A DNA stretch of 64,000 bases from Tropicibacter alexandrii (GTDB lineage Bacteria > Pseudomonadota > Alphaproteobacteria > Rhodobacterales > Rhodobacteraceae), in assembly GCF_003667315.2 (NCBI RefSeq), contig NZ_RCTZ02000014.1, positions 62,001-126,000 of the forward strand, written 5' to 3'. The notes under the pieces were generated by a model that was not told where the DNA came from, did not search any database, and was given only the letters and a program-made list of their open reading frames with translations. The position numbers and the translations under genes were made by a program. Each line of letters opens with the position of its first letter. Within the stretch, counting starts at the first letter, position 1. Of the stretch, positions 8,165 to 62,583 are shown in pieces.

Positions 8165-8977
8165 ATGGCCGCAAATCCACGTTATGTGAGGGGCAAGAGG
8201 TGCCCTTGGATGCTGTTTCGGATCAACGGTCAAAGCTTGCACGTCAATGTCCCCACTTGGGCGACATTGGAGGCGCGCGTGCGCGAGCGCTTTGCAAAAC
8301 GGCAGGGTTTTGCGCTGGCGACGGTGAACCTGGATCACCTGGTCAAGCTGCGCAGCGACGGGGCGTTCATGGACGCCTATCTGGCGCAGGATTTCGTGGT
8401 GGCGGATGGCAATCCGATCGTCTGGATGTCGCGGCTGGCCGGGCGCCCGGTCGAGCTGATTCCCGGATCAGAAGCGATCCTGCCGCTAGCGCGGATCGCG
8501 GCGGCGCAGGGTGTGCCGGTGGCGCTGGTCGGCTCGACCGAAGAGGTGCTGACCTCGGCAGCAGCCTATCTGGAACGCGAAGTGCGTGATCTGCGCGTGG
8601 CCTGCTGCATTGCGCCGCCCATGGGATTCGATGCGGGGGGCGCCGCAGCGGAGGACGTGTTGAGGGACGTGGCGGCGTCGGGCGCGCGGATGTGCTTTGT
8701 CGCAATGGGCGCCCCCCGGCAAGAGATATTCGCCGCCTTGGGGCGTCGCGTTGCGCCGGAGGTCGGGTTTGCGTCCATCGGGGCGGGGCTGGATTTCTTT
8801 GCAGGCACGCAAAAGCGCGCGCCGGGCTGGGCGCAGCGTTTCGCGGTCGAATGGTTGTGGCGCGCTCTGTCCAGCCCGAAGCGGCTGGGGCCGCGCTATC
8901 TGAAATGCCTGATGATCCTGCCGGGGCAGGTCTTGCGGGCGGGGTTTTTGCGGTTCTCGGGGGGGCGCGGGGCATAG
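8165..8977 (+). CDS. WecG/TagA/CpsF family glycosyltransferase
   Basis: This 270-residue family 26 transferase shows the conserved blocks ATVNLDHLVKL, VADGNPIVWMSRL and MGAPRQEIF, with PGWAQRFAVEWLWR near the C-terminus. Members transfer ManNAcA- or GlcNAc-type sugars to lipid-linked intermediates at the inner membrane. The ATG at 8165 is chosen over one at 8129 because AAAGGG lies about 7 nt upstream. It is divergent from the Gfo/Idh gene and convergent with the SDR gene. Its stop codon lies inside a strong hairpin (8967-8983). Confidence 0.88.
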   Translation: MAANPRYVRGKRCPWMLFRINGQSLHVNVPTWATLEARVRERFAKRQGFALATVNLDHLVKLRSDGAFMDAYLAQDFVVADGNPIVWMSRLAGRPVELIPGSEAILPLARIAAAQGVPVALVGSTEEVLTSAAAYLEREVRDLRVACCIAPPMGFDAGGAAAEDVLRDVAASGARMCFVAMGAPRQEIFAALGRRVAPEVGFASIGAGLDFFAGTQKRAPGWAQRFAVEWLWRALSSPKRLGPRYLKCLMILPGQVLRAGFLRFSGGRGA

Positions 8978-28314: not shown

Positions 28315-28404
28315 CCGGGGCTGTGCCCCGGACCCCCTTGGGGCGCTGCCCCCTGCGCGTGCCGCGCATTCCCCCGAGGTATTTCGGGACCGAAGAAGCA
28401 CGGG
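28315..28404 (-). repeat. Dispersed intergenic element, copy A
   Basis: Read on the minus strand it holds CTTCTTCGGTCCCGAAATACC, split here as CTTCTTC, GGTCCCG, AAATACC, then GGGGGCAGCGCCCC and a hairpin CCGGGGC/GCCCCGG with a 3-nt loop (28315-28331). Similar blocks are at 36701-36770 and 44301-44372. The remaining 28232-28485 gap shows no gene. Confidence 0.6.
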
Positions 28405-31681: not shown

Positions 31682-31746
31682 GCCCCGGGCTTGACCCGGG
31701 GCCTCCCGGTCGGTTTCGCCCAGAGGTGCCGGGTCAAGCCCGGCAC
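31682..31746. repeat. Inverted pair of TCAAG-loop palindromic elements
   Basis: Copy 1 (31682-31702, minus orientation) has stem GCCCCGGG; copy 2 (31726-31746, plus) has stem GTGCCGGG with its matching complement. Both have loop TCAAG and are 23 nt apart. They fill the gap between fghA and the YaiI gene. Confidence 0.9.
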
Positions 31747-39877: not shown

Positions 39878-39903
39878 GCGGACCTCGCGGGGCTGAGGTG
39901 GAG

Positions 39904-39924
39904 GCCCCGGGTCAAGCCCGGGGC
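39904..39924 (+). repeat. TCAAG-loop palindromic element
   Basis: Stem GCCCCGGG, loop TCAAG, exact complement. It is a single copy in the gap between potH and potI. Confidence 0.9.
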
Positions 39925-39938
39925 GGGTGTGCAACTGG

Positions 39939-40839: not shown

Positions 40840-40905
40840 GTCCCGGGCTTGACCCGGGACCTCATGGTCGGGCTTGGCGTGGAGGCCCCGGGTCAAGCCC
40901 GGGGC
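40840..40905. repeat. Inverted pair of TCAAG-loop palindromic elements
   Basis: Copy 1 (40840-40860, minus) has stem GTCCCGGG; copy 2 (40885-40905, plus) has stem GCCCCGGG. They are 24 nt apart and fill the ATPase-potH gap. Confidence 0.9.
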
Positions 40906-42314: not shown

Positions 42315-42368
42315 GTCCCGGGCTTGACCCGGGACCTCATGGTGGAGGCCCCGGGTCAAGCCCGGGGC
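42315..42368. repeat. Inverted pair of TCAAG-loop palindromic elements
   Basis: Copy 1 (42315-42335, minus) has stem GTCCCGGG; copy 2 (42348-42368, plus) has stem GCCCCGGG, 12 nt apart, in the potF-ATPase gap. Confidence 0.9.
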
Positions 42369-50608: not shown

Positions 50609-52456
50609 ATGAACAGTCACACCCCCAATATGCGCCCGATCATCCGGCAGTTGGACGAGGCCGCGATCAACCGGATCGCCGCTGGCGAAGTGGTCGAACG
50701 GCCCGCGTCGGCGGTGAAGGAAATCGTCGAAAATGCCGTGGATGCAGGCGCGCGGCGGGTCACGGTCGAGATCGCGGATGGGGGCAAGACGCTGATCCGC
50801 GTGACCGATGATGGCTGTGGCATGACACCGGACGAACTGCCTCTGGCCCTGTCGCGCCACGCCACGTCCAAGATCGACGGGACCGACCTGCTGAACATCC
50901 ATTCCTTTGGCTTCCGGGGGGAGGCGCTACCGTCCTTGGGCGCGGTGGGCCGTCTGACGATCCAGAGCCGGGCGCGCGGGCATGAGGCCGCCGAGCTGTC
51001 GGTCGAGGGCGGGGTGATGCGCGGCGTCAAACCCTGCGCGCTGAACGCGGGCACCGTCGTCACGCTGCGCGATCTGTTCTACGCCACGCCCGCGCGGCTG
51101 AAGTTCCTGCGCACGGACCGGTCGGAAACGCAGGCCATCGGCGATGTCATCAAGCGGCTGGCCATGGCCGAGCCCTCCGTCGGGTTCACCCTGCGGGACG
51201 TGTCGGGCGGCGGCGACCGGGTCACGTTCCGCGTCGATCCCGAGACGGGCGACCTGTTCGACGCGCTGCGCGGACGGCTTTCGCGCGTCATGGGGGCGGA
51301 ATTCGTGGAAAACGCGCTGGCCATCGACGCCGAGCGCGAGGGTTTTCGCCTGACGGGCTACGCGGCGCTGCCGACCTATTCGCGCGGCACGGCGGTGGCG
51401 CAGCACCTGTTTGTCAATGGCCGCCCGGTGCGGGACAAGATGCTGATCGGCGCGCTGCGCGGGGCCTATCAGGACTTCCTGTCGCGCGACCGTCACCCGG
51501 CGGTGGCGCTGTTCGTCGATTGCGATCCGCACAAGGTCGACGTGAACGTCCACCCGGCCAAGTCCGAGGTGCGCTTTCGCGATCCCGGCGTGGTGCGCGG
51601 GCTGATCGTTTCCGGCCTGCGCCATGCGCTGGCCGAGGCGGGGCATCGCGCGTCCTCCACCGTGGCGAGCGACACTTTGGGCGCGATGCGGGCCGAGCCT
51701 GCGCAGCCGCGCGTCTACCAGATGGACCGGCCCTCGATGGGCGCGCTGCGCAGCGCCTATCAGGCGCAGGCGCCGATCCCGCAGCCGGGCTTTGCCGATC
51801 TGGGCAATACCTATTCGGGACGTGTCGTCGAGGAACCCGAGGTGGAGGCCCCGGGTCAAGCCCGGGGCGGGGAGAGCCTGCCTTTGGGTGCGGCGCGCGG
51901 GCAGGTGCATGAGAACTACATCATCGCCCAGACCGAGACCGGCATCGTCATCGTTGACCAGCACGCCGCGCATGAGCGGCTGGTCTATGAGAAACTCAAA
52001 CGCCAAATGGCGGAGAATGGCGTTGCGGCGCAGGCCTTGCTGATCCCCGAGGTGATCGACCTGTCGCCGGACGATGCCGCGCTGCTGCTGTCGGTGGCGG
52101 ATGATCTGGCCCGCATGGGCTTTGCCGTCGAGGCGTTTGGCGGGGGGGCTGTCGCCGTCCGTGAAACCCCGGCGATCCTTGGAGAAGTGAACGCGAAAAA
52201 GCTGATCGAGGACATTCTGGACGAGCTGTCCGACCTTGGCGAAAGCCAGCTGGTGCAGGAGAAAATCGAGGCGATCCTGAGCCGGGTGGCCTGTCATGGC
52301 TCTATCCGCTCGGGCCGCCGGATGCGCGCCGAAGAGATGAACGCGCTGCTCCGTGAGATGGAGGCGACGCCGCATTCCGGCCAGTGCAACCACGGCCGCC
52401 CCACCTATGTGGAGCTGAAACTCAGCGATATCGAACGGCTGTTCGGGCGCACATGA
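50609..52456 (+). CDS. mutL: DNA mismatch repair protein MutL
   Basis: This 615-residue GHKL ATPase has ENAVDAGARRV, DDGCGM and HATSKI/GFRGEAL in the N-terminal domain. The C-terminal domain carries the endonuclease motif DQHAAHERLVYE (DQHA-x2-E-x4-E), so it should nick DNA itself, consistent with the absence of MutH. The linker (about residues 330-425) contains an in-frame TCAAG-loop palindromic element encoding [12 protein letters not shown] near residue 413. The stop overlaps the rmuC start by 4 bp. Confidence 0.95.
   Translation: MNSHTPNMRPIIRQLDEAAINRIAAGEVVERPASAVKEIVENAVDAGARRVTVEIADGGKTLIRVTDDGCGMTPDELPLALSRHATSKIDGTDLLNIHSFGFRGEALPSLGAVGRLTIQSRARGHEAAELSVEGGVMRGVKPCALNAGTVVTLRDLFYATPARLKFLRTDRSETQAIGDVIKRLAMAEPSVGFTLRDVSGGGDRVTFRVDPETGDLFDALRGRLSRVMGAEFVENALAIDAEREGFRLTGYAALPTYSRGTAVAQHLFVNGRPVRDKMLIGALRGAYQDFLSRDRHPAVALFVDCDPHKVDVNVHPAKSEVRFRDPGVVRGLIVSGLRHALAEAGHRASSTVASDTLGAMRAEPAQPRVYQMDRPSMGALRSAYQAQAPIPQPGFADLGNTYSGRVVEEPEVEAPGQARGGESLPLGAARGQVHENYIIAQTETGIVIVDQHAAHERLVYEKLKRQMAENGVAAQALLIPEVIDLSPDDAALLLSVADDLARMGFAVEAFGGGAVAVRETPAILGEVNAKKLIEDILDELSDLGESQLVQEKIEAILSRVACHGSIRSGRRMRAEEMNALLREMEATPHSGQCNHGRPTYVELKLSDIERLFGRT
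51848..51868 (+). repeat. TCAAG-loop palindromic element inside mutL
   Basis: Stem GCCCCGGG, loop TCAAG and exact complement, identical to intergenic copies at 39904, 40885 and 42348, including the GTGGAG prefix and GGCGGG-type suffix. It is translated as part of the interdomain linker. Confidence 0.9.
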
Positions 52457-57536: not shown

Positions 57537-58814
57537 ATGACCGTAGAAGTGAAAGTTCCCGATATCGGCGATTTCAACGACGTGCCGGTGGTGACCGTTC
57601 TGGTCAGCGTCGGTGACACGATTGCCGAAGAAGACCCCATTGTCGAACTGGAGTCGGACAAGGCCACGATGGAGGTGCCGTCCTCGGCATCCGGTGTGGT
57701 CAAGGAAATCAAGGTTTCCGAGGGCGACAAGGTGTCCGAAGGGTCGGTTCTGCTGATCGTCGAAGGCTCGGACGCGGGCGATGCGCCGAAGGAAGAGCCG
57801 AAAGACGCGCCCAAGGCGGATCAAGGTGGAGGCTCCGGGTCAAGCCCGGAGCGCGATGTGCCCAAGCCTGCGCCCGCGCCTGCGGCGAAGACCGATGCGG
57901 GCTTTTCCAAGGTGCATGCCTCGCCGTCGGTCCGGGCCTTTGCCCGCCGGGTCGAGGTGGACCTGAACACCGTCAACGGCTCGGGCCGCAAGGGTCGTAT
58001 CCTGCGCGAGGACGTGGAAAAGGCGCTGAAATCCACCGCCGCCCCCGTGGCTGCTGCGGCGGGTGTCTCGGGCGGTATGGGTATCCCGCCGATCCCCAAG
58101 GTCGATTTCTCGAAATTCGGACCTGTGGAAGACGTGGAAATGCCCCGGATCAAGAAGATCTCGGGCCCGGCGCTTCACCGCTCGTGGCTGAACATCCCGC
58201 ATGTGACGCATAATGACGAGGCCGACATCACCGATCTCGACAAGTACCGCAAGGAAATGGACACGCATGCCAAGTCTGAGGGCTATCGCGTCACGCTGCT
58301 GTCCTTTGTCATCAAGGCTTCGGTGTCCGCGCTGAAACAGCATTGGGAGGTGAACTCGTCCATCCATCCGGATGGCGACAAGCTGATCAAGAAAGATTTC
58401 TACAATATCGGTTTCGCCGCCGACACGCCGAACGGGCTGATGGTGCCTGTGATCAAGGATGCGGACCGCAAGGGTCTGGTCGAGATTTCCAAGGACCTGA
58501 TGGACCTCAGCGCCAAGGCCCGCGCGGGTGAGTTGAAGAGCGCCGACATGCAGGGCGCGACCTTCACGATTTCCTCGCTTGGTGGGATTGGTGGCACGTC
58601 GTTTACGCCGATCGTCAATGCACCCGAGGTGGCGATCCTTGGCCTGACCCGGTCCAAGATGGCCCCGGTCTGGAATGGTGAGGAATTCGTGCCGCGCCTG
58701 ATGCAGCCGCTGTCGCTGTCCTATGACCACCGCGCCATCGACGGGGCCTTGGCCGCACGCTTTGTCGTGACGCTGAAAACCCTGCTGGGCGACATGCGCA
58801 AGCTGATGTGGTGA
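57537..58814 (+). CDS. aceF: Pyruvate dehydrogenase E2, dihydrolipoyl acetyltransferase
   Basis: This 425-residue E2 has one lipoyl domain (about 1-75, lipoyl Lys in ELESDKATMEV), a peripheral-subunit-binding domain (ASPSVRAFARRVEVDLNTV, about 120-155) and a catalytic domain with DHRAIDGALAARF near the C-terminus. Only one lipoyl domain is present, where E. coli has three. The linker at about residues 97-105 is encoded by a TCAAG-loop palindromic element. GAGGA sets the ATG at 57537. Confidence 0.95.
   Translation: MTVEVKVPDIGDFNDVPVVTVLVSVGDTIAEEDPIVELESDKATMEVPSSASGVVKEIKVSEGDKVSEGSVLLIVEGSDAGDAPKEEPKDAPKADQGGGSGSSPERDVPKPAPAPAAKTDAGFSKVHASPSVRAFARRVEVDLNTVNGSGRKGRILREDVEKALKSTAAPVAAAAGVSGGMGIPPIPKVDFSKFGPVEDVEMPRIKKISGPALHRSWLNIPHVTHNDEADITDLDKYRKEMDTHAKSEGYRVTLLSFVIKASVSALKQHWEVNSSIHPDGDKLIKKDFYNIGFAADTPNGLMVPVIKDADRKGLVEISKDLMDLSAKARAGELKSADMQGATFTISSLGGIGGTSFTPIVNAPEVAILGLTRSKMAPVWNGEEFVPRLMQPLSLSYDHRAIDGALAARFVVTLKTLLGDMRKLMW
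57832..57852 (+). repeat. TCAAG-loop palindromic element inside the E2 gene
   Basis: Stem GCTCCGGG, loop TCAAG, complement CCCGGAGC: a stem variant that stays fully paired. It is read in a different frame from the mutL copy (GGGSGSSPER here), again in an interdomain linker. Confidence 0.88.
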
Positions 58815-61938: not shown

Positions 61939-62583
61939 TCAGATTTTCAGGAATGGCTGCGCCAGACGGGGCAGGAGTCCCTTGAACCGCAGGGGCGCAT
62001 CCGTCACCGCAAGGCAGATGCAGTCCTGCGAGATATCGGCAACCGGCATATGTTCCAGATCGTCATCCGCGATCTCGATGTCGCCGCGCGCAAAGCGCCC
62101 CTCGGCATCCTCGAACGCCCCCTGCAGCACCAGCGTCAGTTCAAGGCCGTTATGACTGTGATCCGGCACCGCCGTACCAGCCGGAATGTAAAGCAACCGT
62201 GCCGTCGCCTCGGGCGAGGTTTCAAGGATCGCCTGTTTCACGCCCATGCCCACGGGCCGCCATTTCACGTCCGAAAGCCCTTTGCCGACATAGTCGGCCA
62301 ATGGGGCCGGAACGAGATCGCACCCGCGTCTTGGGGCAGGGGTGGCGCTCGTCTCTCCCTTGCGGATCATGTCCAGTGCGCCCGCAAGGCACGCCTCGCT
62401 GACCTCGTGGGAATGGCGTTCAAGCAGCACGCCGCCCACCGCGTCATAGGCGTCCAGACTGGCCCTGCACGCGTCGCATAGCGATATATGCGTCGCCACG
62501 ATCAGGTTGACCGCTTCGGGAAGCGTCCCGGCAGAATAACCCATAAGCAGGTCTTCGGTCAGGTGATGTGTGATCTTTGTCAT
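61939..62583 (-). CDS. chrR: ChrR-type zinc anti-sigma factor
   Basis: This 214-residue protein has an N-terminal zinc-binding anti-sigma domain (THISLCDACRASL, giving H-x3-C-x2-C with an earlier His in THHLTED) and a C-terminal cupin (PDHSHNGLELTLVLQGAFED with a later His in LEHMP). In Rhodobacter sphaeroides ChrR holds RpoE inactive until singlet oxygen appears. Its ATG overlaps the rpoE stop (ATGA), so synthesis of the two is coupled. Confidence 0.93.
   Translation of the reverse strand: MTKITHHLTEDLLMGYSAGTLPEAVNLIVATHISLCDACRASLDAYDAVGGVLLERHSHEVSEACLAGALDMIRKGETSATPAPRRGCDLVPAPLADYVGKGLSDVKWRPVGMGVKQAILETSPEATARLLYIPAGTAVPDHSHNGLELTLVLQGAFEDAEGRFARGDIEIADDDLEHMPVADISQDCICLAVTDAPLRFKGLLPRLAQPFLKI

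Follow-up and report, generated by a model that had tools for sequence, protein, structure and literature searches.

A CGTC-like palindromic repeat translated in frame in the interdomain linker of MutL of Tropicibacter alexandrii

The mutL gene of Tropicibacter alexandrii raises the question of how a short palindromic repeat came to be read as protein between two domains of a mismatch-repair enzyme, and whether it was inserted there or took the place of a native linker. The gene lies in a stretch of 64,000 nucleotides (positions 62,001 to 126,000 of contig NZ_RCTZ02000014.1), which we refer to as the window. An earlier note on this DNA proposed that a palindromic element is translated in frame within the MutL linker, and this is borne out by the 30/30 identity of the repeat to other copies, by its codons, which belong to MutL residues 411–422, and by its position between Pfam domains. 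The location given there also holds, although the coordinates (51841–51876, with the copy at 51848) were a few bases off, the repeat starting at 51842 and the run that it has in common with its best genomic match at 51835. Codons 51839–51874 encode a 12-residue peptide that spans the repeat and falls in the linker between the Pfam matches to DNA_mis_repair (residues 226–341) and MutL_C (residues 431–571), ending nine residues ahead of the latter. Within MutL_C the protein carries DQHAAHERLVYE at residue 450, which we take to be the endonuclease motif. In the AlphaFold model, pLDDT is approximately 28–41 in the ten-residue blocks covering residues 351–430, with no secondary structure at residues 388–432; disorder in the linker is weakly supported by the model, because low confidence extends to residue 480, inside MutL_C, and the mean pLDDT is 60.8. 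We assign no function of its own to the repeat in MutL.

Table 1. Positions in the window of mutL, pdhC and the repeat copies discussed in the text
Feature	Position	Strand	Basis or remark
Head-to-head REP dimer	31682..31746	.	G000:C5:93682 and 93723
Single REP between two minus-strand ORFs	39898..39927	+	Repeat match, alignment; nearly all in gap of G001 alignment
Head-to-head REP dimer, 66 bp	40840..40905	.	Nearly all in gap of G001 alignment
Head-to-head REP dimer, 54 bp, 6-nt spacer	42315..42368	.	Absent in G001, where the flanking alignment is poor
mutL, DNA mismatch repair endonuclease MutL, 615 aa	50609..52456	+	ORF; NCBIfam NF000953 equivalog over cut-off; Pfam HATPase, DNA_mis_repair, MutL_C
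37-nt run in common with the internally shortened dimer G000:C7:16108-16130	51835..51871	+	Probable minimal inserted extent
REP unit GTGGAGGCCCCGGGTCAAGCCCGGGGCGGG, in frame in mutL	51842..51871	+	30/30 identity to three other copies; 0 by chance
pdhC, pyruvate dehydrogenase E2 (dihydrolipoyllysine acetyltransferase)	57537..58814	+	TIGR01348 over cut-off; Pfam lipoyl and E3-binding domains flank the copy
REP unit in PdhC linker, in frame, QGGGSGSSPERDV, residues 96-108	57826..57852	+	Compensated stem variant GGCTCC..GGAGC; not in G001

The three copies that match GTGGAGGCCCCGGGTCAAGCCCGGGGCGGG at 30 of 30 positions are those at 39898 and 42342 of the window and at G000:C7:16127, and the mutL copy and the copy at G000:C7:16130 have 37 nt in common, beyond the 30-mer itself. 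Judged by these identities, the repeat in mutL is one that arrived by copying. Convergence would require a Pro/Gly/Ala-rich linker in a GC-rich genome to have drifted into a repeat-like palindrome, and while the MutL linker is indeed of low complexity and fast-evolving, the identity to three copies, the length of the common run and the expectation of none in shuffled sequence leave this reading with a negligible probability.

With up to three mismatches allowed, a 27-base pattern of the repeat matches six times in the window, whereas 100 dinucleotide shuffles gave a mean of 0.00. When six window places were compared with the same-genus genome G001, flank identities were 71–85% and the ends were not exact; the dimer at 31682 had no match in the G001 stretches compared. 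The minus-strand ORFs that flank the single unit at 39898 look like transporter permeases. The window also contains a second palindromic repeat, CGGGGCxxAGCCCCG, at 8968, 36643 and 45892 on the plus strand and at 28316 on the minus strand; a CTACG end follows each of the three plus-strand copies, and its reverse complement starts with CGTAG, like a GTAG-tagged REP. A separate tandem repeat of nine overlapping copies in 36-bp steps occupies positions 428–880.

The repeat family extends well beyond the window. The exact 17-mer CCCGGGTCAAGCCCGGG occurs 48 times in the genome, on many contigs (its reversed control not at all), and the 30-mer has 31 matches at up to three mismatches. In the loci examined, 69 units with up to five substitutions make up 24 dimers and 21 lone units, giving the 45 places referred to below, one unit (G000:C16:27603, five substitutions) being probably a chance match. 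The unit is 24–30 bp long, with eight stem pairs and a 5-nt loop, and the dimer 46–70 bp. Among the 64 units with at most two substitutions, Watson–Crick pairs fill 509 of 512 stem cells, reflecting compensated stem changes: the first pair is G-C in 63 units, while the second has T-A in 35 units and C-G in 28. The loop is TCAAG in 53 of these units and the outer trimer GGG in 29 or GCG in 20. The family therefore has two of the characteristics expected of REP sequences, a short palindrome (20–40 bp) in many dispersed copies and a stem maintained through compensated substitutions. The 24 dimers are all oriented head to head (minus then plus), the end called the head being chosen by matching to Di Nocera et al. 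(2013; PMC3733652). The spacer is 16–18 nt in 16 of the 24, giving dimers of 64–66 bp, and a common form carries TGG or ATGG at one spacer end and GTG at the other; because of these unlike ends the dimer looks, from its sequence, like one asymmetric element and not a chance pair. Five of the six reading frames of a single unit and four of the six of a typical dimer are free of stops.

This architecture can be set against three known systems. Di Nocera et al. sort REPs into the GTAG and CGTC superfamilies, and describe the latter as found mainly in alphaproteobacteria, in all orders, and as lacking a transposase (PMC3733652). Our family resembles the CGTC REPs in several respects: an 8-bp stem and 5-nt loop, head-to-head dimers, an alphaproteobacterial host, no transposase found, and copies in frame within genes that include DNA-repair genes. 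The wider CGTC description, with stems of 8–9 bp, loops of 4–5 nt, predominantly head-to-head dimers and no dedicated transposase, fits as well. The differences lie at the base of the stem, where T-type units read C-GTC outward but with the GTC paired, leaving no unpaired CGTC tag, and where A/T pairs are missing at the first position; the combination of an unpaired CGTC-type tag with A/T as the first two stem pairs was thus not found. Since the architecture fits but the unpaired tag and the A/T stem base are missing, we regard the family, on its sequence, as CGTC-like and not as a member of that superfamily. The main text of PMC3733652 gives no hits for Rhodobacter, Roseobacter, Ruegeria, Rhodobacterales, mutL or mutS, and Rhodobacterales may be among its species elsewhere, for example in figures or extra files.

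The second comparison is with REPINs, inverted REP doublets with a spacer that Bertels and Rainey (2011; PMC3116915) consider the likely mobile unit, with singlets as remnants. Our family resembles them in its inverted doublets with a spacer and in lone units that could be remnants, and the doublet as replicative unit would fit 24 dimers, 21 lone units and an insert of about dimer size in pepN (see below), movement as such not being observed. The pairing of a GTAG-type tag with a RAYT was not found, although 26 of 64 units have GTG or GTA ahead of GAG. A further difference is that no RAYT/Y1 transposase was found: a profile search of the genome found no PF01797, the Y1_Tnp domain of RAYT and IS200 proteins. 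Nor is there an association among 45 relatives, PF01797 being present in one of 15 other genomes with at least eight exact copies compared with four of 30 hand-picked genomes with none.

Thirdly, the earlier note likened the element to the Rickettsia palindromic elements, which are described as residing in ORFs without breaking the frame, at solvent-exposed places, with lengths of 100–150 bp (PMC3767692). The comparison is apt, as RPE-4 and RPE-6 belong to the CGTC superfamily that our family resembles, corresponding to CGTC-4 and CGTC-1, respectively (PMC3733652), and the copies in mutL, pdhC, pepN and bchB are all in frame between domains. Our family is set apart from them by the size described, a unit of 24–30 bp and a dimer of 46–70 bp against 100–150 bp, and by the fact that most of its copies are not placeable inside a recognised protein.

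The distribution of the repeat among relatives is uneven. The same-genus genome G001 has no copies at up to three mismatches of a 24-mer, and the exact 17-mer is found in 44 of 295 genomes of the family (one per genus, our own included), with 1–119 copies in each and 48 in our own. Being absent from G001 and present in only this minority of the family, the repeat family is patchy and, as far as sequence comparison can tell, was expanded or lost between sister species. Among plasmid records of marine Rhodobacteraceae, three contain a weak (75–79%) dimer-length match. Separately, the repeat occurs in three contigs of a viral collection (L220, L221 and L222), and in two of these contigs two units face each other.

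To place the mutL copy in this history, MutL was compared with 110 other loci (G001, 29 other genera and 80 titled loci), which amount to 101 distinct proteins, nine pairs of loci representing the same protein in two collections and being counted once. The MutL of G001 is 91% identical to ours and lacks the repeat peptide. Six element-type peptide patterns scanned in the 101 distinct proteins match one, that of Mameliella sp. CS4 (L066), and the other 100 have no repeat-type peptide; a weak match of L109 in the core scan of the MutL loci was rejected, as it is not the palindrome. The observation that would have spoken against insertion according to the earlier note, conservation of the same peptide in distant MutL proteins, was therefore not made, the single match being a different copy. 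In Mameliella sp. CS4 the peptide EVPDQVRDG, encoded around GAGGTCCCGGATCAGGTCCGGGAC, lies in the same linker, which between the same anchors is 63 aa long compared with 48 in Mameliella sediminis, 15 aa longer; the two genomes have 51 and 35 pattern matches, respectively, at up to one mismatch. This shared location could suggest that the repeat is an ancestral feature of the MutL linker that was lost in relatives, but the loop and stem bases are not the same in the two copies, no copies exist in G001, and the peptide is missing from 100 of the 101 distinct other proteins, which makes common ancestry highly improbable.

The prediction that close relatives would reveal a clean insertion of 30–36 bp was not borne out in mutL. 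Our MutL linker is 75 aa long, whereas the median is 76 and the range 67–121 in 100 distinct relatives, none of which has a linker as short as ours minus 12 (length was read for 100 of the 101 distinct proteins, L113 being left out, or 103 of the 110 loci before duplicates were removed). Against G001 the linker stretch shows a net gain of 6 bp, and over a longer stretch our linker is 4 aa shorter (49 aa vs 53); the closest relative, approximately 79% identical in the flanks, is too distant to place the ends or a target duplication. Because our linker is no longer than those of relatives, native linker has apparently been lost or replaced in mutL, a similar amount being missing. For the same reason, the arrival of the repeat is inferred from sequence identity and not from an empty site; the alignments can be read either as insertion followed by deletion or as replacement.

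Copies in other genes of the genome bear on this choice. They also agree with the proposal, made in the earlier note by analogy with Rickettsia, that such elements enter genes and are tolerated in linkers, as several of these copies are likewise interdomain. The PdhC copy has a 30-nt run in common with the copy at G000:C1:97786, including the stem variant of PdhC itself; PdhC, at 425 aa matched, is longer than 11 of 14 relatives (matches of 415–434 aa) and by 10 aa than that of G001, a length that is suggestive only of insertion. In PepN the copy is in frame between the Pfam domains M1 and DUF3458, and our protein has TPAPGEDPGPLGGVDVEVPGQAR (23 aa, 69 bp), which 13 of the 14 relatives compared, G001 among them, do not have. 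In the DNA of this insert the right-hand unit is good and the middle resembles a spacer, whereas the left half has decayed; the alignment presents the insert as a clean in-frame insertion of about one dimer (69 bp). At this position the fourteenth relative, G174 (L173), which belongs to a different genus, also has an insert. It finishes with EAPDQARG (GAAGCCCCGGATCAAGCCCGGGGC) but otherwise differs from ours, and is itself a decayed repeat of broadly the same kind. The BchB copy is in frame between Oxidored_nitro and PCP_red, in a linker shorter than most. In another genome (L201, G021) the bchB linker contains RPQVDPAPAPAESGPEARGG, which looks like a heavily decayed dimer and may be a mere Pro/Ala linker. 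In our own genome, at the bchY locus L155, a further copy is in frame at the BchY N-terminus; as it precedes the start of the TIGR02015 match, the start codon of BchY may lie downstream of it.

An alternative to transposition is that a segment of the native mutL linker, similar in length, was exchanged for the repeat through recombination, or through template switching, with a copy elsewhere in the genome. This would account for the absence of a net change in mutL length and is in keeping with the unremarkable linker lengths of PdhC and BchB, but no homology that could have seeded the exchange was noticed by eye in the linkers of relatives, and pepN has a net insertion of approximately dimer size. 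We consider such a replacement unlikely, while giving it more weight than any other competing account.

As regards the location mostly between genes that is usual for REPs, Pfam domains lie on both sides of the repeat at four of the 45 places, and genes without a Pfam family could hide among the rest; Pfam was run on 39 ORFs taken from a longer list with some alternative frames left out, so copies in non-Pfam proteins may escape. Lone units lie between Pfam domains in four of 21 cases and dimers in none of 24 (Fisher p 0.040), a borderline difference, given no weight here, in which pepN is counted as lone though a decayed dimer, and which would shift with ORFs that have Pfam support on one side, namely BchY (lone) and a Rieske ORF and a PTA_PTB ORF (both dimers).

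Could the repeat instead have been kept for what it does in mutL? Its RNA is predicted to fold into a 9-bp hairpin that might control mRNA stability, polarity or translation, or the insertion might alter MutL and produce a mutator phenotype; Di Nocera et al. speculate that mutators may arise from REPs located in repair genes (PMC3733652), and a second MutL with a copy exists in Mameliella sp. CS4. However, the local fold does not clearly exceed that of shuffled sequences in strength (z −0.95), the two carriers among 102 distinct MutLs, our own included, represent no evident enrichment by count alone, and PdhC, PepN and BchB are not repair proteins. A functional role of this kind is accordingly improbable in our estimation.

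Taken together, the mutL segment is very probably a copy of a REP whose mobile form is likely to be a REPIN-like head-to-head dimer of approximately 66 bp, and which entered the gene after the split from the sister species and was then partly lost. A dimer, or a shortened dimer, would have been mobilised in trans and entered the mutL linker, and part of the element together with some native linker would have been lost afterwards or on arrival. The remaining 30–37 bp would read as a Pro/Gly-rich stretch because five of six frames are free of stops, and would survive as the length and order of the linker are loosely constrained. Elsewhere, dimers would decay to lone units, as has been argued for REPINs (PMC3116915), and insertions outside linkers would be purged; the open frames of unit and dimer would help in-gene copies to survive.

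REPs within genes, many of them in DNA-repair genes, have been known since 2013, together with the suggestion that they are tolerated in flexible linkers (PMC3733652), and the MutL case is a new example of this. In the open-licence literature we found nothing on a palindromic element inserted in the MutL linker and, by title, nothing on REPs in Rhodobacteraceae; titles matching the repeat core as text do not concern this repeat. A more far-reaching reading is that Rhodobacteraceae have a REP-dimer family which spreads independently of a RAYT and, in different genera, enters identical interdomain positions time after time, in MutL (our own and that of Mameliella sp. CS4) and in PepN (our own and that of G174), such that these may be hot spots and the mobile palindrome a recurrent source of linkers. 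A similar question of hot spots is raised for Rickettsia (PMC3767692). We regard this reading as doubtful; if true, the recurrent source of linkers would reach even a mismatch-repair protein that limits such rearrangements. With the present case, a mismatch-repair gene joins those in which palindromic repeats are known to have turned into protein sequence. With dozens of repeats in this genome and none in G001 of the same genus, the pair offers a natural before-and-after comparison, and since copies occur in parallel in these linkers in other genera, the choice between hot spot and tolerance can be tested.
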